From NCBI GenBank assembly GCA_030622395.1, contig JAUXGF010000032.1, positions 1 through 11,418 on the forward strand: a stretch of DNA of 11,418 nucleotides. Reading direction: 5' to 3'. Source of the stretch: Calditrichaceae bacterium. GTDB taxonomy: Bacteria > Calditrichota > Calditrichia > Calditrichales > Calditrichaceae. The notes beneath the pieces are model-generated. The model saw nothing but the letters and a program-made list of their open reading frames with translations. It had not been told where the DNA came from and made no database searches. The translations under genes and the position numbers were made by a program. Below, in pieces: positions 45 to 10,909 of this stretch (positions are counted from its first letter, which is position 1; the number at the start of each line of letters is the position of its first letter).

Positions 45-188
45 AGTGCCTGAACGAAAACTAGCCAAAACTGTCATTTCGAAGCGGAGCGAGAAATCTA
101 TTAACGTTATAAATATTGAAGTTAAAGATTTCTCACCCGATAAATCGGGATTCGAAATGACAAAAAAGCGCTTTTTCGTTCAGACACT
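45..188. repeat. Nested palindromic dispersed repeat upstream of purM (TGTCATTTCGA family, copy 1)
   Basis: The outer arms AGTGCCTGAACGAAAA (45-60) and TTTTCGTTCAGACACT (173-188) are inverted repeats with one mismatch. Inside them is a second palindrome: TGTCATTTCGAA (72-83) against TTCGAAATGACA (151-162), then GAGAAATCT (91-99) against AGATTTCTC (126-134). A third small hairpin, CCCGAT/ATCGGG, lies at 137-149. The inner palindrome recurs in the purL-purQ gap at 4660-4739, so it is a dispersed, MITE-like family. It ends 27 bases before purM, so any purM promoter upstream must lie within it or further left. No transposase is encoded. Confidence 0.8.
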
Positions 189-1542: not shown

Positions 1543-4542
1543 GTGGAAAGCGGAAACGTTAATCATATCCAATTAATATTTAAAGATCATATTCCCGATA
1601 CAGCGGGTGCGCAGCTTCACAGGGATGCAAAAAAGTATTTCCATATTGATACGGGAAAAGTAAAGACAGGAAAAATATATTCTATCCTTTATGATTTGAA
1701 CAAGCGGCAGGTTTCCGATTTCGCTAACTGCGCCCTTAAAGATACTGTGATCAATGACGTTTATATTAATAATTTGTACAACAGCCCGGCGTTCAAATCC
1801 TGTATTCTCATTTCAAAGCTGCCCGGAGTTACGGATGACGAGGGAATATCCGCTCAAAAAACGCTCGGCGACTTTTTTAATATTTCTTTGGAAACCGGGG
1901 CTCAATGGATATTTACCCAGGAAATATTTTACATTGAAAATGAACTGCCGGACGAATCACTTAAAAAGATAGCAGAAGACCTGCTCGGAAATCCATTAAT
2001 CAATCATTTTGAATACGGCGCGTTTCAGGGAAAAATCACCTACATTCCCGAAGTGCATGTTTCATCAAATGCGCAAATCAAAACAGTCAATATTTTTATT
2101 CCCGATAATGAACTTTTGGATTTATCAAAAAAAATGCTGCTTTCGCTTGATTTGAACGAGATGAAAGCGATCCAAAATCATTACCAAAATCCTGAGGTTA
2201 AAAAGCACCGAAAAGAAGCGGGTCTTTCCGAACTGCCGACAGATTGTGAAATTGAAATACTTGCCCAGACCTGGTCGGAGCATTGCAAACACAAAGAGTT
2301 TAACGCAGCAATTACCTATACAGACCTTGAAACAGGCGAAGAAAAAAAGATTGATTCGCTTTTCAAAACTTTCATTAAACAATCGACGGATATTATTCAA
2401 AAGCGATTTGAGGCGGGCGGGAATAACTGGCTTTTAAAGGTTTTTAACGATAACGCCGGGGTTGTGCGTATTGACGATAAGCGTGTTTTTATCTGGAAGG
2501 TGGAAACGCATAACAGCCCCTCGGCGCTTGATCCTTATGGCGGGGCGCTGACCGGAATAGTAGGCGTTAACCGCGATCCGCTCGGTACGGGGATCGGAGG
2601 CGGGAAGATTCTTTTCAATACTAATGTTCTGTGTTTTGGTTCGCCTTATTACGAGGGTAAATTATTAAAAGGGCAGCTTCATCCGCGGCGTATTCTTTCG
2701 GGCGTGGTCAAGGGTATCGAAGACGGCGGCAACAAGTCGGGCATTCCCACGGTAAACGGATCGGTTATTTTTGACGACCGCTACAGGGGAAAACCGCTGG
2801 TTTTTTGCGGCACAGGCGCGGTTATGCCCGCAGAATTCAACGGTAAAAAATCATGGGATAAAGTAATCGAAGACGGCGACCGCATTATTTCGGCTGGCGG
2901 CAGGGTAGGGAAGGACGGCATACACGGCGCTACTTTCTCATCGCTTGAGATCGACGAGCATTCCCCGCGTTCCGCAGTGCAGATAGGCAGTCCGATCACG
3001 CAGAAAAATCTTTCCGACTTTATGCAGAGAGCGTCTGAAAAAGGCTGGATAAAATGTTCGACCGATATGGGAGCCGGCGGGCTTTCCTCATCAATCGGCG
3101 AGCTGGCGACGATCAGCGGCGGGGCGGTCGTGCATTTGGAAAAGGCGGCGCTTAAATATTCCGGATTGCAGCCCTGGGAAATATTTGTCTCCGAATCACA
3201 GGAGCGGATGACCTTTGTGGTGGAAGAAAAAAATATTAAACCGTTGTTTGATTTAGCGCAGGATTTTGAAGTTGAGCTTTCCGATATCGGCTGTTTCACT
3301 TCCAGCGGCATGCTTGACGTGCGTTACGAAAATAAAAATGCCGCTTATATTGATCTTGATTTCCTGCATAACGGAATTCCCAAAAAATATCTTTCCGCAG
3401 AGTGGAAGGCGCCGCAATGCAGCGAGCCGGAGCTTCCCCAAAAAATAGATTATAATCAAATTTTACTGCGCCTGATGGGCAGCCTGAATGTATGTTCGCG
3501 AGAATTAATTATTCGCAGATATGATCATGAAGTTAAAGGGAAATCAGTTATTAAACCTTTAATGGGAGCGCAGGGTTTTGCGCCGCAGGATGCAGCGGTC
3601 ATGCGGCTTGGATTTGATTCTTATGAGGGAATTGCCGTATCGAACGGCATTATCCCGCGCTATGGCGATATTGACGCCTACGAAATGTCCGCCGGTTCAT
3701 TTGATGAAGCCATCAGGGGAATCATTGCCGTGGGCGGAAAACTGCCTGATCCGCATAATGCGGATAATAGATTTTGGACTGTAAACGATAATTTTTGCCT
3801 TCCCGATTCCGCTTTTAATGAAAAGTCTAATCCCGACGGAAAATACAAACTGGCTCAGCTTGTCAGAATGAATCAGGCGCTGTTCGATATGGCTGTTTAT
3901 TTTAATATCCCGATGACTTCGGGCAAGGACAGTATGAAAAACGACTTTATTAAAGAAGGCGTAAAAATTTCTGTTCCGCCGACTATATTATATTCCATAG
4001 TCGCAAAAATAGACGATGTGCGCGAAACGGTTACCGCGGAATTTAAAAAGGAAGGTGATCTTGTTTATCTGGTGGGTAAAACATATAATGAAATGGGCGG
4101 CTCGGAATTTTACAATCTTTTTAAAGAGCTTGGCGCTAATGTGCCTGTGGTCAGAAAAGAGCGGGCTAAACGGCTTTATCAAAAAATGACACAGGCAAAT
4201 AATAATAGATTGATCGCTTCCTGCCATGATCTTTCCGACGGAGGATTGGCTGCGGCTTTAACGGAATCCGCTTTTGGCGGCGGGCTTGGCGCGGATATAA
4301 ATTTTAACGGACGGGAAATAGGTTTAAATGCGGCGCTTTTCTCCGAATCGCATTCCAGATTTATTGTGTCGGTCGATCCCAAATTAAAGTCCGGTTTCGA
4401 ATCAATTATGGGCGGCGACTGCGCGCTTTTAGGACGGATTACTCAGGATAAGCGCCTTAAAATTGGTTGGAATGGAACTGAAGTTATAAATGTAGAAATA
4501 GATAAACTTTTAAATGCTTGGCGGAGCGGGTTGTCAATTTAG
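1543..4542 (+). CDS. purL: Phosphoribosylformylglycinamidine synthase, synthetase subunit
   Basis: PurL makes FGAM from FGAR, ATP and ammonia delivered by the PurQ glutaminase (step 4, the substrate for PurM). The 999-residue protein shows QTWSEHC (242-248), VETHNSPSA starting at 320, GIPTVNGS, GRVGKDGIHGATFSS, STDMGAGGL, SESQERM, GKDSM (794-798) and HDLSDGGL starting at 895. This covers both AIRS-like halves. It is larger than small PurL (about 740) and smaller than fused PurL (about 1,300). The first 230 residues look like PurS-like modules, which fits the absence of a separate purS here, and the C-terminal glutaminase is missing and supplied by purQ downstream. The start is GTG at 1543 with AAAGGA at 1529-1534, well spaced. 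The reading frame is intact. GC content is visibly higher than in the downstream accessory genes. Confidence 0.96.
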   Translation: MESGNVNHIQLIFKDHIPDTAGAQLHRDAKKYFHIDTGKVKTGKIYSILYDLNKRQVSDFANCALKDTVINDVYINNLYNSPAFKSCILISKLPGVTDDEGISAQKTLGDFFNISLETGAQWIFTQEIFYIENELPDESLKKIAEDLLGNPLINHFEYGAFQGKITYIPEVHVSSNAQIKTVNIFIPDNELLDLSKKMLLSLDLNEMKAIQNHYQNPEVKKHRKEAGLSELPTDCEIEILAQTWSEHCKHKEFNAAITYTDLETGEEKKIDSLFKTFIKQSTDIIQKRFEAGGNNWLLKVFNDNAGVVRIDDKRVFIWKVETHNSPSALDPYGGALTGIVGVNRDPLGTGIGGGKILFNTNVLCFGSPYYEGKLLKGQLHPRRILSGVVKGIEDGGNKSGIPTVNGSVIFDDRYRGKPLVFCGTGAVMPAEFNGKKSWDKVIEDGDRIISAGGRVGKDGIHGATFSSLEIDEHSPRSAVQIGSPITQKNLSDFMQRASEKGWIKCSTDMGAGGLSSSIGELATISGGAVVHLEKAALKYSGLQPWEIFVSESQERMTFVVEEKNIKPLFDLAQDFEVELSDIGCFTSSGMLDVRYENKNAAYIDLDFLHNGIPKKYLSAEWKAPQCSEPELPQKIDYNQILLRLMGSLNVCSRELIIRRYDHEVKGKSVIKPLMGAQGFAPQDAAVMRLGFDSYEGIAVSNGIIPRYGDIDAYEMSAGSFDEAIRGIIAVGGKLPDPHNADNRFWTVNDNFCLPDSAFNEKSNPDGKYKLAQLVRMNQALFDMAVYFNIPMTSGKDSMKNDFIKEGVKISVPPTILYSIVAKIDDVRETVTAEFKKEGDLVYLVGKTYNEMGGSEFYNLFKELGANVPVVRKERAKRLYQKMTQANNNRLIASCHDLSDGGLAAALTESAFGGGLGADINFNGREIGLNAALFSESHSRFIVSVDPKLKSGFESIMGGDCALLGRITQDKRLKIGWNGTEVINVEIDKLLNAWRSGLSI

Positions 4543-4625: not shown

Positions 4626-4775
4626 CCCGACTGTCAGGGTGTTGCTCTAGTATTTTTTCTGTCATTTCGAGGATCTTTTAACGAGAAATCTATTGTTATT
4701 ATTGACGTTATAAGATTTCTCACTCCGTTCGAAATGACATTTTGGGTGTTCTGCAACAGCCTGCTATTCGGGATC
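4626..4775. repeat. Nested palindromic element between purL and purQ, apparently inserted in the preceding repeat
   Basis: The terminal inverted repeats are 20 bases at 4626-4645 (starting CCCGACTG, ending GTTGC) and 4753-4772 (starting GCAAC, ending ATTCGGG), matching at 16 of 20 positions. They enclose a copy of the TGTCATTTCGA palindrome. The hexamer ATCCGT stands on both sides (4620-4625 and 4776-4781), which could be a target-site duplication. However, ATCCGT is itself part of the surrounding repeat family, so this is only suggestive. Confidence 0.6.
4660..4739. repeat. TGTCATTTCGA-family palindrome, copy 2
   Basis: TGTCATTTCGA (4660-4670) and TCGAAATGACA (4729-4739) are perfect inverted repeats. 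Inside, GAGAAATCT (4683-4691) pairs with AGATTTCTC (4713-4721). Both pairs match the copy upstream of purM (72-162), while the spacers differ. This supports an old dispersed family whose stem, not its loop, is conserved. Confidence 0.8.
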
Positions 4776-5020: not shown

Positions 5021-5033
5021 GGAAATTAAAATG
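5021..5033 (+). promoter_or_regulatory. Ribosome binding site deciding the purQ start
   Basis: GGA (5021-5023, in TTGGAAATT) lies seven bases before the ATG at 5031. The translation from there begins MKKVRSLVLTG, the expected PurQ N-terminus. The upstream GTG at 4986 lies inside a repeat and would add 15 residues that do not resemble the family. Confidence 0.6.
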
Positions 5034-5852
5034 AAAAAAGTTCGTTCACTTGTTCTTACGGGACTCGGTATCAACTGCGAAGAGGAGATGGCTGCGGCTT
5101 ACCGCCTGACCGGGGCGGAGGCTCAGATCGTCCATCTTAATGAAGTTTTTAAGGGCGGAATATCGATTCATGATTTTGATATATTAAACTTCCCCGGCGG
5201 GTTTTCCTTTGGCGACGATCTTGGATCCGCTAAGGTGTTGGCTAATAAATTCAAATATAAACAAATGGCGTCGGGCGGAACATTTTTAGATGAACTGCGC
5301 AAATTTTTGGATAATGGAAAATATATCCTCGGCGTGTGCAACGGTTTTCAGGCTTTGGTCAAAATGGGACTGCTGCCTAATATCAGCGGGAAGTTTGAAC
5401 AGGAAGTCACTCTTACTTACAATGATTCCGGTAGGTTTGAAGACCGCTGGATTACCTGCAAAACAAATGAAAATTCTAAAACGCCGTTTGTAAAAGGGAT
5501 TGATTTGATCGACTTACCCGTGCGTCACGGCGAGGGCAAATTGCTGATTAAAGATCAAGCGATCAAAGAAGATATTATCAAACATGCCTTGAACTGTTTT
5601 AGTTATACAGACAAAGACGGCAATATCACTAAAGAATATCCGTTTAATCCAAATGGTTCGGAATTGAACTGCGCCGCTTTAACGGACAAGTCAGGGCAGA
5701 TTTTAGGCATGATGCCTCATCCTGAAGCCTTTCTTTCCATGTACAACCATCCCAATTGGGGGAAGCTAAAAAGAGAAAATCCGCTGCTGGCAGAAGAGGG
5801 CATGGGGTTGAGAATATTTAAGAATATTGTGGAGTATGTTTTGGGGGGATAA
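5031..5852 (+). CDS. purQ: Phosphoribosylformylglycinamidine synthase, glutaminase subunit
   Basis: PurQ hydrolyses glutamine and passes ammonia to PurL for FGAM synthesis. From the ATG at 5031 the protein has 273 residues, a class I glutamine amidotransferase. It shows the PGGFSFGDDLGSAK segment, the nucleophile Cys103 in GVCNGFQ, and the His230/Glu232 pair in MMPHPEAF, so the Cys-His-Glu triad is complete. RHGEGK is also present. Length matches the longer PurQ type that partners mid-size PurL; no purS is seen. It is separated from purL by a repeat-filled gap of nearly 490 bases, so it may depend on its own promoter or on read-through. Just 18 bases after its stop begins a cassette array, making purQ the likely transcriptional source for the cassette genes. 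Identity is secure; only the start is a choice (alternative GTG at 4986). Confidence 0.95.
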   Translation: MKKVRSLVLTGLGINCEEEMAAAYRLTGAEAQIVHLNEVFKGGISIHDFDILNFPGGFSFGDDLGSAKVLANKFKYKQMASGGTFLDELRKFLDNGKYILGVCNGFQALVKMGLLPNISGKFEQEVTLTYNDSGRFEDRWITCKTNENSKTPFVKGIDLIDLPVRHGEGKLLIKDQAIKEDIIKHALNCFSYTDKDGNITKEYPFNPNGSELNCAALTDKSGQILGMMPHPEAFLSMYNHPNWGKLKRENPLLAEEGMGLRIFKNIVEYVLGG

Positions 5853-5870
5853 AACTGCTAATACTACTAT

Positions 5871-5877
5871 GTTATGC
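5871..5877 (+). other. Integron-type core site (R') marking the left end of the cassette array
   Basis: GTTATGC fits the core consensus GTTRRRY with one deviation. It is the exact reverse complement of GCATAAC at 7251-7257, the first core of the element after the next gene. By integron logic, crossover occurs between G5871 and T5872. No L box, attI-like repeats or full attC fold are visible to its left, where only 18 bases separate it from the purQ stop. It may be a secondary insertion site. Confidence 0.7.
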
Positions 5878-7375
5878 TCACTTGGATATTTTGAATGGAT
5901 GTTATTAAAATAAATAAGTTTACAGAATCAGATTTTGACCAAATCATATTTGAATCTGGTGGTAAAAGATATGTTCAAGATTCAAGTATCCAAAAAAAAT
6001 CTAATGCTGATTATATTGTTAATGAAGTTATTATCGAACTTAAATTATTAGATGAGGAAGCATTAGAAAAGGGTATAAGACAAAAGAAAATTGCTGCACT
6101 CTTTAAAGAGGTTCAACCCGAAAGACCAGTTGTAATAATTGATCCATCAATTTTAACAGAAGAGCAAAAAAGAAAATATTATAATTTATGTGAAGGTCCG
6201 ATCAAAACAGGTGTAAAAAAAGCAGCAAAGCAACTTGATCAAGTTTACACTGATACAGGAAAAAATAAACTTCGTGTATTACTCATAGTTAATAATGGCT
6301 ATTCTTCTCTTAGTATGGATGAATTCAAAAATATTGTTCTTAAATGTGTAAGGAATGACACATCGAAAATAGATTTTGTTATCTTATGTGGTTTGTATTG
6401 GTATGGCGACGGATATGATAACTATGCTTTTACTCCTTTTGAATTAGTACCTATAAATATTTCAAAATCTTTTTTATCATTTGATTTATTGCAGAAATCA
6501 TGGAATCAATTTATTAATTACTTTATGACAAAGTTTATAAGAGAGAAGAATCTAGAAGGTCATAGTAAACTACCTCAAATGGATATAGTATTTGACCTTG
6601 ATGGAACAACTTTTATTAAACCAGCGAGGAAACTTGGAAAAAGTTCATGGTTTTGGAAAGAAGGAGAAAGAGGTCGAAAAAATACTACAGGCATTTCAGA
6701 GTGTCCACCTGTAGCAAGGACTTTGCCTTATTCTACAGAAGCTGATTGGATTAAATTTAAAAAACTACTTCCATATGAAAAGTTTTTTCGTAATACATAC
6801 ACTGAATGGAAGTCTTGGGCTGAAGAAAGAAAAACAATGAACAATGATATTTTAATACCATTTCTTTTTATAAATATTGAGTTTGAACCTTGTGTTAAAT
6901 GGTGTGAACATAATTACCATTCTCTTGGATTCCATGAAATTTCTAATTATGCTGTTCATATTTTCGATACAAATGTTAAAGAAATAATTAATAAGGCAGT
7001 AGAAATAAAGTCAAATGATATCAGGCCAGCAAGATATCTTCTTCTGAAAACGGAGGAGATTGGACAAGATAAAAAATACGATATTTCACATCTATTTTAC
7101 ATTTCACTGTTTCCTGGATTCGAAAGAGAAGAAAAGGTCTTTATGAATGAACAATTATTTTTTGAATATGCTTTGTCTCTTGCAGGTGCATATGCTATTA
7201 AATACAATATTAATAGTATTTATTACAATATTGATGGTCGTTATTCGTGGGCATAACAATGGTATGAAAGGGAATTTAAACACGTCCTTTTCTCCCACAG
7301 TTGATTCAATCCGAGCAAGTTTCTTAGCTCACAAAGGATACTGGCCGCTGTGCGTTTAAATCCCCTGATACCCAG
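5872..7375 (+). mobile_element. Gene cassette 1 (nuclease-like protein gene plus attC1)
   Basis: This 1,504-base unit is bounded by the crossover points in GTTATGC (5871) and GTTATAC (7375). It contains one gene on the + strand with a short leader and a 3' palindromic recombination element, the standard cassette design. On circularisation its outer cores would be GCATAAC and GTTATGC, perfect complements. It is markedly more AT-rich than purL; for example, the 60 bases from 6001 contain 15 G/C, against 39 in the 60 bases from 3061. Confidence 0.75.
5895..7256 (+). CDS. Cassette-borne protein of unknown function with a nuclease-like N-terminus
   Basis: I do not recognise this 453-residue family with certainty. 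Residues 38-70 read as Asp39-x8-Glu48-Leu-Lys50 followed by an amphipathic helix with Arg62, Lys64 and Lys65. This fits the D-Xn-(D/E)-X-K pattern of PD-(D/E)XK nuclease folds. Residues about 105-165 (KQL, a VLLIVNNG strand at 128-135, an IDFVILCG strand at 159-166) are compatible with the rest of such an alpha/beta core. The C-terminal half is rich in Trp, Tyr and Phe and has no motif I can name. There is no signal peptide or membrane segment. The ATG has no convincing Shine-Dalgarno sequence. The start lies 17 bases after the core site and the stop TAA lies within the next core site, as in compact integron cassettes. A defence role is an inference from the fold and the restriction gene next door. 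Confidence 0.8.
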   Translation: MDVIKINKFTESDFDQIIFESGGKRYVQDSSIQKKSNADYIVNEVIIELKLLDEEALEKGIRQKKIAALFKEVQPERPVVIIDPSILTEEQKRKYYNLCEGPIKTGVKKAAKQLDQVYTDTGKNKLRVLLIVNNGYSSLSMDEFKNIVLKCVRNDTSKIDFVILCGLYWYGDGYDNYAFTPFELVPINISKSFLSFDLLQKSWNQFINYFMTKFIREKNLEGHSKLPQMDIVFDLDGTTFIKPARKLGKSSWFWKEGERGRKNTTGISECPPVARTLPYSTEADWIKFKKLLPYEKFFRNTYTEWKSWAEERKTMNNDILIPFLFINIEFEPCVKWCEHNYHSLGFHEISNYAVHIFDTNVKEIINKAVEIKSNDIRPARYLLLKTEEIGQDKKYDISHLFYISLFPGFEREEKVFMNEQLFFEYALSLAGAYAIKYNINSIYYNIDGRYSWA

Positions 7376-7381
7376 TTATAC
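7251..7381 (+). other. attC site 1 (long, divergent)
   Basis: It runs from core R'' GCATAAC (7251-7257) to R' GTTATAC (7375-7381), 131 bases. Five-base spacers AATGG and ACCCA separate the cores from imperfectly paired L-like segments (7263-7272 and 7362-7369). The arms then continue with ATTTAAAC (7274-7281) against GTTTAAAT (7354-7361) and TCCTTT (7285-7290) against AAAGGA (7333-7338). A distal GAGC/GCTC hairpin lies at 7313-7330. R'' overlaps the stop codon of the preceding gene. R' is the exact complement of the first core of attC2, and R'' is the complement of the core at 5871. The stem is less regular than attC2, so the call rests mainly on core identity and position. Confidence 0.7.
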
Positions 7382-7395
7382 AACTAAAATTAGTT
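7382..7395. promoter_or_regulatory. Small palindrome in the leader of the restriction-modification gene
   Basis: AACTAA-AA-TTAGTT is a perfect 14-base palindrome 31 bases before the ATG of the MmeI-like gene and immediately after the cassette's leading core site. It could be an operator or part of a promoter region. No controller-protein gene is visible, so this is a weak candidate. Confidence 0.25.
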
Positions 7396-7426
7396 TAACG
7401 TCATACTGAAAGGATGGAATTCAATA

Positions 7427-10168
7427 ATGGCATTAAGTTGGAATGAAATAAAAGACCGAGCATTAAAATTTGCAAAAGAATGGGAAGGTGAAAGCCGTGA
7501 AAGGGCTGAGAAAGATACTTTTTGGAACGACTTTTTTAATGTTTTCGGAATTACAAGAAGGCGTTTAGCAACCTTTGAAGAACCTGTAAAAAAACTAAAC
7601 AACAAACAAGGGTTCATTGACCTATTTTGGAAAGGAACTTTGCTAGTAGAACATAAATCCAAGGGAAAAAACCTTGATGCAGCTTTTGAACAAGCAACCG
7701 ACTATTTTAATGGAATAAAAGAACACGAATTACCAAAATATGTATTAGTTTCAGACTTTGAAAGGTTCAAATTATATGACCTTGATGATAAAAAAGAGTA
7801 TGAATTTCAAACAAGTGAACTACATAAAAATATCAAACTGTTTGGCTTCATTGCAGGCTATCAAAAAAGAACTTTCAGAGATGAAGACCCTGTAAACATT
7901 AGAGCAGCGGAATTAATGGGAAAACTTCATGACCAGTTAGAAGAAAGCGGTTATAAAAGCCACCCTTTAGAAGTATTCTTGGTTCGTCTATTATTTTGCA
8001 TATTTGCAGATGACACAGGAATTTTTGAAAAGGACACTTTCAAAGAATTTATTGAAGTAAAAACAAATGAAGATGGAAGCGATTTGGGTGCATGGTTAGC
8101 CCAATTTTTTCAAGTGTTGAATACCCCGCCTGATATAAGACTTAAAAACCTTGATGAACACTTAAATGCTTTTCCCTATGTAAATGGCAAACTTTTTGAA
8201 GAAGCATTACCAATTGCTGCTTTCAATTCAAAAATGCGTGAAATACTTTTGGAATGTAGTGCGTTAGATTGGGGTAAAATTTCTCCTGCAATTTTTGGCA
8301 GCATGTTCCAAAGTGTAATGAACTATGAAGAACGTAGAAATTTAGGAGCACACTACACGTCTGAAAAGAATATTTTAAAACTTATAAAGCCGCTTTTTTT
8401 AGATGAACTAAAAGAAGAATTCAACAAGGTCAAAAGCAATAAGAATAAACTCACAGAATTTCATCAGAAATTAGGAACGCTTAAATTTCTTGACCCTGCC
8501 TGCGGCTGTGGAAACTTCTTAATTATAACTTACCGGGAACTTCGACTTCTTGAGTTGGATGTTTTAAAAGAACTGTACGGAGCTCAACAGGTATTTGGCA
8601 TTGACCAAATCATGAATGTTGATGTTGATCAATTCTATGGTGTTGAATATGACGAATTTCCAGCAAGAATAGCAGAGGTAGCCTTATGGTTGATGGATCA
8701 TCAAATGAACTTAAGAGTATCTGAAGAATTTGGGCGATATTATGCACGATTGCCACTTAAAAAAGCAGCAACTATTTTTCATGGCAACGCTTTGAGAATT
8801 GATTGGGAAGAAGTAGTGCCAAAAAACGAGTTGGACTATATATTAGGCAATCCTCCTTTCTATGGAAAACAACTGCAAACCACTGAACAGAAAGAAGATA
8901 TGAAGCTCATATATGCAGGTGTAAAAGGAGCAGGAGTAATGGACTATGTTTCTGCTTGGTATATGCGGGCAGCTCAATACATACAGGATACCAATATTAA
9001 AGTTGCTTTTGTTTCTACTAATTCAATTGCGCAGGGTGAACAAGTAGGTATTTTGTGGAATGAAATGTTCACTAAATATGAAATTAAAATTCATTTTGCT
9101 CATAGAACTTTTAACTGGAAAAACGAGGCTAAGGGAAATGCAGCCGTTCATGTAGTAATTATAGGCTTTGCAAATTTTGATGCCAAAAACAAATCCATAT
9201 TTGATTACGAAGACATAAAAGGCGAACCGCATAAAATAAAAGCAAAAAACATAAGTCCTTACTTGGTTGATACGGGTGATTTGGCTATTTTAAAAAGAAG
9301 AAAACCCATCTGCAATGTATCAGAAATATCGTTTGGCAGCATGCCAAATGATGGAGGTAATTTTTTGTTTACTAATGATGAAAAAAATGAATTTTTAAAA
9401 TTAGAACCAATCGCAAAACCTTTCATTAAATCTTTATTAAGTGCTCATGAATTTTTGAATGGTAAAAAAAGGTGGTGCTTATGGTTGGAAAATATAAAGC
9501 CGAATGAATTAAGAAGTTTGAAAGAAGTCCAAAAAAGAATTCAGGATGTAAAGGAACTTCGAGAGAGCAGTACCAGAGCAGCTACTCAAAAATTAGCTGC
9601 TTTTCCCGCATTGTTTGGAGAAATAAGACAGCCAAAATCAGAGTATATTTTGATTCCAAGACATTCATCTGAGAATAGGAAATACATTCCAATGGGATTT
9701 TTTCCTCCAAGTTATATTGCAAGTGATAGTTGCTTAGCTATTGACAATGCAACTTTATATGACTTTGGCATTCTTCATTCGGGAATGCACATGACTTGGG
9801 TAAAATATACCTGTGGAAGAATAAAAAGTGATTACAGATATTCTAATGAAATGGTCTATAATAATTACCCTTGGCCGAAAGCCCCAAGTGATAAAAACAA
9901 AAAAGCGGTAGAAGCAAAAGCCCAAAAAGTGATAGATGTACGGGCAGAATTTCCTGATAGCAGCCTAGCAGATTTGTATGACCCATTAGCCATGCCACCT
10001 AAATTGGTTAAAGCGCATCAAGAATTAGATAAAGCAGTTGATTTGTGTTACCGACCACAAGCTTTTACGAATGAAACAGCTCGGATAGAATTTTTATTTG
10101 AATTGTACAACGAGTATATATTCCCATTATTGAAAAAAGAAAAGAAAACAAAAAAGATAAAAGTATGA
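7427..10168 (+). CDS. MmeI-like type IIG/IIL restriction-modification enzyme (fused endonuclease and adenine methyltransferase)
   Basis: This 913-residue protein is the length of MmeI (about 919) and has its architecture. An N-terminal PD-(D/E)XK nuclease (Asp65-x9-Glu75-His-Lys77) comes first, then a helical spacer to about 300. A gamma-type N6-adenine methyltransferase follows, with motif X region GAHYTSEKNI (307-316), SAM-binding DPACGCGNF (356-364) and catalytic NPPF (475-478). A target-recognition region spans about 610-820, ending YNNYPWPKAP, with a C-terminal helical tail. One polypeptide in this family recognises DNA, methylates one strand and cuts at a fixed distance, so no partner subunit is needed. 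All catalytic motifs are intact. The specificity cannot be read by eye. The ATG follows AAAGGATGG (7409-7417). It sits between two attC elements, so it is a cassette gene. A methyltransferase-only relative is unlikely given the nuclease motif. Confidence 0.9.
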   Translation: MALSWNEIKDRALKFAKEWEGESRERAEKDTFWNDFFNVFGITRRRLATFEEPVKKLNNKQGFIDLFWKGTLLVEHKSKGKNLDAAFEQATDYFNGIKEHELPKYVLVSDFERFKLYDLDDKKEYEFQTSELHKNIKLFGFIAGYQKRTFRDEDPVNIRAAELMGKLHDQLEESGYKSHPLEVFLVRLLFCIFADDTGIFEKDTFKEFIEVKTNEDGSDLGAWLAQFFQVLNTPPDIRLKNLDEHLNAFPYVNGKLFEEALPIAAFNSKMREILLECSALDWGKISPAIFGSMFQSVMNYEERRNLGAHYTSEKNILKLIKPLFLDELKEEFNKVKSNKNKLTEFHQKLGTLKFLDPACGCGNFLIITYRELRLLELDVLKELYGAQQVFGIDQIMNVDVDQFYGVEYDEFPARIAEVALWLMDHQMNLRVSEEFGRYYARLPLKKAATIFHGNALRIDWEEVVPKNELDYILGNPPFYGKQLQTTEQKEDMKLIYAGVKGAGVMDYVSAWYMRAAQYIQDTNIKVAFVSTNSIAQGEQVGILWNEMFTKYEIKIHFAHRTFNWKNEAKGNAAVHVVIIGFANFDAKNKSIFDYEDIKGEPHKIKAKNISPYLVDTGDLAILKRRKPICNVSEISFGSMPNDGGNFLFTNDEKNEFLKLEPIAKPFIKSLLSAHEFLNGKKRWCLWLENIKPNELRSLKEVQKRIQDVKELRESSTRAATQKLAAFPALFGEIRQPKSEYILIPRHSSENRKYIPMGFFPPSYIASDSCLAIDNATLYDFGILHSGMHMTWVKYTCGRIKSDYRYSNEMVYNNYPWPKAPSDKNKKAVEAKAQKVIDVRAEFPDSSLADLYDPLAMPPKLVKAHQELDKAVDLCYRPQAFTNETARIEFLFELYNEYIFPLLKKEKKTKKIKV

Positions 10169-10188
10169 ACGCCAGACAATGTTTACTT

Positions 10189-10266
10189 GTATAACAAGCG
10201 GCTGCACATCGACCGCTTTTCCGCTGCTTCGCAGCTCCAAAGCGGCGAGTGAGCAGAATGTTGGGC
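10189..10266 (+). other. attC site 2 (canonical integron recombination site)
   Basis: This 78-base element has every attC part. R'' is GTATAAC (10189-10195), followed by spacer AAGCG and L'' GCTGCAC (10201-10207). The central stem pairs CCGCTTT (10213-10219) with AAAGCGG (10239-10245), with a top hairpin GCTGC-TTC-GCAGC (10223-10235). L' is GTGAGC (10249-10254), followed by spacer AGAAT and R' GTTGGGC (10260-10266, a perfect GTTRRRY). L'' has one extra base relative to L' (GCT-G-CAC), the extrahelical base that orients IntI on the bottom strand. R'' lies 20 bases after the stop of the MmeI-like gene. R' belongs to whatever follows the array. Confidence 0.92.
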
Positions 10267-10348: not shown

Positions 10349-10909
10349 ATGGATATTATAGAAATTATTATAATAGCCTTGGGGTTGGCTATGGATGCTT
10401 CCGCTGTTTCACTTGTCGCAGCGGCTTCCGGTTATGCAAGGGATTCACGGGCAACTTTCCGTTTGTCATTTCATTTCGGTCTTTTTCAATTTTTAATGCC
10501 TATTCTCGGTTGGTTTTTAGGTGTAAGTTTCATTTCATATTTTGCATCTTTTGACCATTGGGTTGCTTTTGGATTGTTGACTTTTGTAGGCGGTAAAATG
10601 ATTCTTTCCGGAATGAATCCATCTGTAAAGAGCTATACAAATGACCCGTCACGCGGTCTTACATTAATAATGTTAAGTATTGCTACAAGTATTGACGCTT
10701 TGGCAATCGGCTTGAGTCTGGCAATGTTAAAAGTAAATATCTGGTATCCGAGCGTCATTATAGGAGTTGTGACAGCTTGTCTTTCTCTTTTAGCAATACG
10801 GCTTGGGAAACGGTTAGGACTTTTATTCGGTAAACGTATGGAAATCTTTGGGGGCGCAATTTTAATATCAATTGGCATTCGCATTTTGTTGTCCCATTTA
10901 TTATCATAG
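10349..10909 (+). CDS. mntP: Manganese efflux pump MntP
   Basis: MntP (DUF204/YebN family) exports Mn2+ across the inner membrane and protects against manganese excess. The 186 residues match the usual length. The protein is hydrophobic throughout, with about six membrane helices in two related halves. GLAMDASAVSL (12-22, Asp16) in the first helix is mirrored by ATSIDALAIGLSLA (112-125, Asp116) in the fourth. These paired aspartates are hallmark residues of the family, and GLFQ (44-47) and GKRMEIFGG (161-169) are also typical. The ATG at 10349 gives the right N-terminus, although the Shine-Dalgarno sequence is weak and distant. The gene follows attC2 by 82 bases with a leader containing two inverted repeats. 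No matching attC follows the gene in this window, so it is probably chromosomal flank and not a third cassette. Confidence 0.93.
   Translation: MDIIEIIIIALGLAMDASAVSLVAAASGYARDSRATFRLSFHFGLFQFLMPILGWFLGVSFISYFASFDHWVAFGLLTFVGGKMILSGMNPSVKSYTNDPSRGLTLIMLSIATSIDALAIGLSLAMLKVNIWYPSVIIGVVTACLSLLAIRLGKRLGLLFGKRMEIFGGAILISIGIRILLSHLLS

Follow-up and report, generated by a model that had tools for sequence, protein, structure and literature searches.

Clusters of attC sites lacking an integrase (CALINs) are the described elements closest to the locus reported here. IntegronFinder 2 by default calls a CALIN where at least two attC sites lie close together, and known CALINs average almost 6 attC sites, according to the excerpt of PMC9024848 consulted. 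Caldithrix abyssi is entered in Table 1 of PMC10295459 with a CALIN and no integrase, in a row that, as extracted, gives neither genes nor coordinates. Judging from the names of PurQ relatives, Caldithrix abyssi may belong to the same family as our host; integron remains in the host group are, on the evidence of that table row, therefore not wholly new. Our literature search returned no paper treating integrons together with attC sites under Calditrich- names. In Xanthomonas, about half of the genomes carry CALINs away from the intI locus (excerpt of PMC12444791). Two further phenomena are relevant: insertion at secondary attG sites (Loot et al. 2024, as cited in excerpts of PMC12444791 and PMC12901181) and the use of integron cassettes as antiphage gene stores (Darracq et al. 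2025 and Getz et al. 2025, as cited in the excerpt of PMC12444791).

The DNA analysed here (the window; 11,418 nt) is the entire contig C366 of a Calditrichaceae bacterium genome (GCA_030622395.1) of 3.05 Mb in 522 contigs, 76.6% complete. It contains two attC sites with matching cores and two foreign genes in attC orientation, with no integrase at the locus. The two sites (7251-7381 and 10189-10266) are matched by all three of our covariance models, and genes other than an integrase stand on both sides. As an earlier note on this DNA had proposed, a true two-cassette CALIN stands behind the purine operon. Its kind is ordinary; its defence-type cargo and its location are new. We consider it highly probable that an integron integrase captured both cassettes, which at present lie behind the operon without one. 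With the CALINs in the excerpt of PMC9024848 it shares two attC sites, the lack of an adjacent integrase and cassettes in one orientation; relative to the average given there it is small, and unlike known CALINs it has one long 2.9 kb cassette. As in attG insertions, in the cited excerpts, the left core is a bare GTT without an attC and sites are spread over the genome. As in the antiphage stores, to judge from the titles of those two papers, defence-type genes occupy cassettes, but the array is not large and the defence role here is a predicted one. The features are as follows.

216-1376, + strand: purM, left flank
1543-4542, + strand: purL, left flank
5031-5852, + strand: purQ, left flank
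5871-5877, + strand: left core GTTATGC, 5' end of cassette 1, with no attC to its left
5872-7375, + strand: cassette 1, 1504 bp, GC 0.306, from core pair and composition
5895-7256, + strand: ORF1, 453 aa, family without a name, probable PD-(D/E)XK nuclease by invariant motif
7251-7381, + strand: attC1, 131 nt, R'' GCATAAC, R' GTTATAC, long variable middle, from model R3 and bottom-strand fold
7376-10260, + strand: cassette 2, 2885 bp, GC 0.349, from core pair and composition
7427-10168, + strand: ORF2, 913 aa, MmeI-like (PADLOC type IIG) restriction-modification fusion by Pfam and PADLOC
10189-10266, + strand: attC2, 78 nt, R'' GTATAAC, R' GTTGGGC, from model R3 and plasmid attC homology
10349-10909, + strand: mntP, manganese efflux pump, right flank, Pfam Mntp 169.7 bits

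All genes lie on the + strand in the order purM, purL, purQ, ORF1, ORF2 and mntP. The left-flank purine genes exceed the Pfam cut-offs for AIRS, AIRS_C, FGAR-AT_linker and GATase_5, and the NCBIfam PurQ models match below theirs; the first named PurQ relatives among the matches listed, at ~70% identity, come from Cloacimonadota and Calditrichaceae, and a PurQ with 95% identity is encoded on a 1.3 kb metagenome contig (P0241). The conserved housekeeping flanks described in the earlier note hold for purQ, with relatives in 53 of 60 genomes (own counted), and not for mntP, which occurs in 14 of the 60 (own counted) and is not universal. In genome G006, mntP is also close to this purine cluster, but on the opposite side (genes named by eye). 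The PurL N-terminus includes a weak PurS-like stretch (E 3e-4, below the Pfam cut-off), PurQ being a separate gene. A palindromic repeat of ~110 bases spans window positions 70-180, with a similar stretch recognised by eye at ~4659-4741. It has at least 45 matches in the own genome, itself counted (40 of 185 candidates scored), and six of them begin at contig base 1; the repeat therefore probably broke the assembly. An Rfam scan of the window yielded nothing reaching the gathering score.

Core heptamers at 5871 (GTTATGC), 7251 (GCATAAC), 7375 (GTTATAC), 10189 (GTATAAC) and 10260 (GTTGGGC) bear out the three core sites that the earlier note had placed around the two genes. The pairs match as expected of cassettes: GTTATGC (5871) and GCATAAC (7251) are exact complements, as are GTTATAC (7375) and GTATAAC (10189), such that in both cassettes the 5' core exactly complements the R'' box of its own attC. 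For an exact match over the four free bases, base composition gives a post hoc chance estimate of ~0.004 in cassette 1 and ~0.005 in cassette 2. The heptamers are not unique on the + strand of the window, where GTTATGC occurs three times in all and GTTATAC twice; the GTT at 5871 is the only one from the purQ stop to the ORF1 ATG. The right border is the R' box of attC2. The cut points, G|TT at 5871 and 7375, are assumed from cassette biology.

attC sites have the consensus boxes RYYYAAC (R'') and GTTRRRY (R'). Both elements carry such boxes (GCATAAC/GTTATAC and GTATAAC/GTTGGGC), departing from the consensus by an A as third base of both R'' boxes, seen also in 5 of the 9 rows of our seed alignment, and by a T in the fifth place of the attC1 R' box. 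The inner L-box helix with extrahelical bases forms at both sites in the bottom strand through the model pairs, two of which are non-standard in attC1. Bottom-strand folding, which the earlier note had proposed as a check, gave -16.6 kcal/mol for attC1 (equally low in 15/500 shuffles) and -18.7 kcal/mol for attC2 (3/500). attC1 forms 17 end-to-end pairs, a number reached in 4/500 interior shuffles; the 10 end-to-end pairs of attC2 are reached in 137/500 shuffles because its outer boxes pair poorly.

Covariance models were seeded with attC sites near integron integrases of relatives, nine of them in register (alignment A6, from G004, G017 and L085). Model R1, built from A6 with 16 pairs and no window sequence, was run on the window with filters off; its best match is 10189-10266 (20.7 bits, E 0.0022), followed by 7251-7381 (10.3 bits, E 1.2). 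The third place has 10.2 bits, and attC1 is at chance level with this model. R2 was built from 38 matches with the window left out, and gives attC2 an E-value of 0.0067. R3 was built from 59 matches, again leaving out the window and including other contigs of the own genome; it scores both sites at 21.8 bits (attC2, E 0.0040), with the third place at 10.3 bits and attC1 on the reverse strand at 8.6 bits. The attC1 E-value fell from 1.2 with R1 to 0.063 with R2 and 0.0041 with R3 as more divergent attC sites joined the models. In all three models the top match is 10189-10266 and the runner-up 7251-7381, each on the + strand; a covariance search of the kind suggested in the earlier note, with these models, returned both of its predicted elements.

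Across 40 sources (476 kb), R1 produced 41 matches at E <=1, the nine seeds included. Only window 10189-10266 and one match in L085 lie outside integrase loci or adjoining arrays; the others fall in loci fetched for an integron integrase or an adjoining array (L061, L064, L069, L070, L076, L078 and L081). Across 32 mostly non-integron sources (258 kb), the two window sites, both at E 0.09, were the sole R3 matches with E under 3. Such values, ~0.004 in 11 kb and 0.09 in 258 kb, are modest, and all model E-values are rough owing to short calibration. The pairs covary among 58 distinct attC sites: changes on both sides of a pair were counted in 146 cells, compared with 54.6 in shuffles (0/500 as high), in an alignment that was fitted to the structure and so leans toward covariation. 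The class 1 integron attC in L084 escapes the models, and R1 at E 1 finds nothing in 11 of 19 fetched integrase loci; the models are accordingly not a general attC detector. Mixed attC sites aligned with MAFFT (A1, A4 and A5) did not stay in register, and these alignments were excluded from the models. A box-and-fold scanner also matches non-integron DNA and missed attC2 in one run, and was therefore used only for finding seeds.

For attC2, further evidence comes from BLASTN against plasmids, which returned 24 records. Twenty-two of these (21 from Pseudomonas and one uncultured) align along 63 bases at 88.9% identity, with E 7e-14; the two weak matches are from Marinobacter (E 0.06) and Halomonas (E 0.8). 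In pYKCS045 (LC623929), the one plasmid record examined, the match stands between two genes, directly after a cupin gene downstream of IntI1 and ahead of a GES-type beta-lactamase gene; at this position the first cassette of a class 1 integron ends. The two elements share their stem, within which a compensatory change (CCGC/GCGG in attC2, CCGG/CCGG in pYKCS045) is found; the cassette gene and host group differ. By this alignment, attC2 is homologous to the attC of a class 1 integron, which identifies the second element as an attC of the proteobacterial mobile integron type. Among phages, attC2 had a single match, 21 bases long (E 0.3). For attC1, BLASTN found no match in plasmids, and the identification of this element is drawn from models R2 and R3, the fold and the boxes.

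Cassette 2 carries ORF2, in which five MmeI Pfam domains (PF20464, PF20465, PF20473, PF20466 and PF20467; N, helical spacer, methyltransferase, TRD and C) exceed their cut-offs in one chain. PADLOC REase_MTase_IIG covers residues 2-898 at 1260.8 bits, and the closest relative among the matches listed is 83% identical. ORF2 contains DLFWKGTLLVEHK, LDPACG and NPPF, which we take to be catalytic. Enzymes of the MmeI type methylate their own site and cut unmethylated DNA. From its domains, ORF2 is an MmeI-type restriction-modification fusion of predicted activity. It has all five domains in common with known MmeI-type (PADLOC type IIG) enzymes, but sits in a gene cassette, unlike these. No MmeI restriction-modification integron cassette was recognised by title or start of abstract among the literature matches listed.

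Cassette 1 carries ORF1, whose TAA stop falls within the core (R'' box) of attC1. D39, E48 and K50 (D-x8-E-x-K) are invariant in 38/38 aligned relatives chosen from the best 120 of 138, and D...ExK is presumably the catalytic motif of a PD-(D/E)XK nuclease; ORF1 is therefore probably such an enzyme. An ORF1 profile had 0 matches to PDB sequences, Pfam over the 38 relatives hit six families with one member apiece (best E 0.018), and the C-terminal part folded alone at pLDDT 37. A relative with 43% identity over 453 aa lies in Neomarinimicrobiota JAGLWX010000302.1 (L085). Model matches at 402-534 and 1163-1235 (the latter a seed) stand upstream of this gene, an attC-like site at 2616-2673, recognised by eye only, stands behind it, and its stop is inside a core-like site, as in ORF1; the surrounding cassettes differ from those of the window. 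L085 402-2673 holds a short run of attC-like sites in which one cassette carries the ORF1 relative. Of the 14 named-genome loci with ORF1 relatives, L085 alone showed model matches; the remaining 13, of which L094 is truncated by a contig end, had none.

ORF1 (at E 1e-10) and ORF2 (at E 1e-100) were each found in one of 40 class genomes, the own one, the ORF2 limit being such that more distant relatives would be hidden. Vertically inherited neighbours, which the earlier note had set against its proposal, were accordingly not found. Both are AT-rich, with GC3 lower in ORF1 (0.178) and ORF2 (0.268) than in the purine genes (0.426-0.471) or mntP (0.321). By distribution and composition, the cassette genes are foreign. 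Only 42 bp separate purQ from the start of ORF1, which has the same orientation, and this gap has no terminator-like site on the + strand, making expression of ORF1 and ORF2 by read-through from the purine operon plausible.

attC sites also occur elsewhere in this genome. An R2 scan found four further attC sites at E <=0.01, on C38, C89, C425 and C172; since 150 of 1192 candidates were scored and the window's own sites were absent, this is a lower bound. On fetched contigs, R2 found an attC at E 0.00056 on C137; its match on C425 was weak (E 0.062). The sites on other contigs, single or paired, lie at L105 5762-5887, L106 761-858, L107 1918-2049 and 2892-2996, L108 780-912, and L110 2933-3034; L107 1918-2049 is weak, and one site has a decayed R'' box (L106; C89, with the AAC lost). 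One cassette on C425 has an exactly matching 5' core, the only exact nearby match among the other own-genome sites. A candidate at C215:1676-1784 (E 9.15, poor boxes) was rejected.

attC sites at E 0.01 were found in 11 of 14 genomes searched (own counted). The one-contig genome G004 has 33 attC matches, 25 of them at 4.866-4.891 Mb beside intI and 8 distant from this array, at 1.10-1.11, 1.90, 2.78 and 3.53 Mb; short arrays far from intI are therefore real in the family and not only a product of contig breakage. The main array lies 3' of intI, and its cassette genes point the same way. The integron integrase frame (L061 9742-10824) is broken by TGA despite the large array. Among three same-genus genomes, a search for the empty site of one scattered G004 array returned only attC-like matches and one 152-base flank piece. 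Large cassettes of defence-like type recur in the family: those of G004 (L114, G004:C1:1099000-1118000; L061) encode a Ppl-like protein of 934 aa and another of 790 aa that matches TIR weakly. The 934-aa protein was considered as an ORF2 relative; it is unrelated and matches Ppl.

The left border, a bare core without an attC, allows for both an insertion at a secondary site and a degraded integron. We give roughly even chances to insertion at a secondary, attG-like site. An IntI encoded elsewhere in the genome or in an ancestor would have recombined the folded bottom-strand attC of free cassettes with a GTT-containing site between purQ and mntP, whose pre-insertion sequence would have read ...ACTACTATG|TTGGGCGGC... 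No empty-site counterpart of the borders was found behind purQ (10 family loci, of which L048 contributes 94 bases only) or before mntP (6 loci), where the comparison gave matches of 10-16 bases only (best, 15 bases, reversed, in L013, E 6e-4); an attG at this position is to that extent inferred. Alternatively, a complete integron behind purQ may have lost intI and attI while two cassettes stayed, which we regard as possible though somewhat doubtful. IntI is common in the family, being above cut-off in 9 of 14 relatives and in 18 of 40 class genomes (own among the 40), and 2 of the 9 family matches (G004 and G013) hold an internal stop. But C366 has no IntI match, the 18 bases from the purQ stop to the left core leave little space for attI, and the attC sites scattered over several contigs here, and over one chromosome in G004, are unlike the remains of one lost integron.

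Compatible with either origin, an intact integron in the unassembled quarter of the genome could still serve the array, which would then be a CALIN only locally; we put this at slightly under an even chance. The incompleteness and fragmentation of the assembly and the frequency of IntI among family relatives speak for it. The best own-genome match, however, reaches 129.5 bits against a family cut-off of 265, the best matches all skip model positions ~190-237, and below-cut-off matches to the same model occur in 14/14 control genomes. The strongest match (TIGR02249) is moreover a tyrosine recombinase on C137 that skips 185-237 and is followed by a zinc-cluster transposase-like ORF, recognised by eye; we rejected it as a diverged IntI. 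In that region (L110 2933-4474), an attC adjoins the recombinase gene, which the transposase-like ORF follows; recombinase and ORF perhaps form an IS91-type element. The absence of an integrase reported in the earlier note thus stands for the locus and cannot be extended to the organism, whose genome is 76.6% complete. That ORF1 and ORF2 are ordinary horizontally acquired genes with chance hairpins is very improbable: the chance-level R1 score of attC1 and the shuffles that fold as low as attC1 would fit such a reading, but three models rank both sites as the top two, attC2 is homologous to a class 1 attC and both core pairs are exact.

The cassettes would supply DNA defence through the MmeI-type enzyme and the probable PD-(D/E)XK nuclease, and an IntI could still mobilise them in trans. 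A wider reading, which we hold to be unlikely, is that the integron of this lineage scatters its cargo: cassettes carrying large defence genes would be dropped by IntI across the chromosome, at numerous secondary sites, and sites at the ends of housekeeping operons would be kept because the operon promoter replaces the missing integron promoter. If so, the pair between purQ and mntP would be a two-enzyme defence island expressed with nucleotide synthesis.

The locus provides a record of cassette biology in a bacterial family of which few members have been sampled. It combines an attC of class 1 integron type with a 2.9 kb restriction-modification cassette, and a nuclease-like family without a name is now seen as cassette cargo. 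If these are insertions at secondary sites, the family would offer a natural setting in which to test how cassettes get out of integrons and become established behind host promoters.
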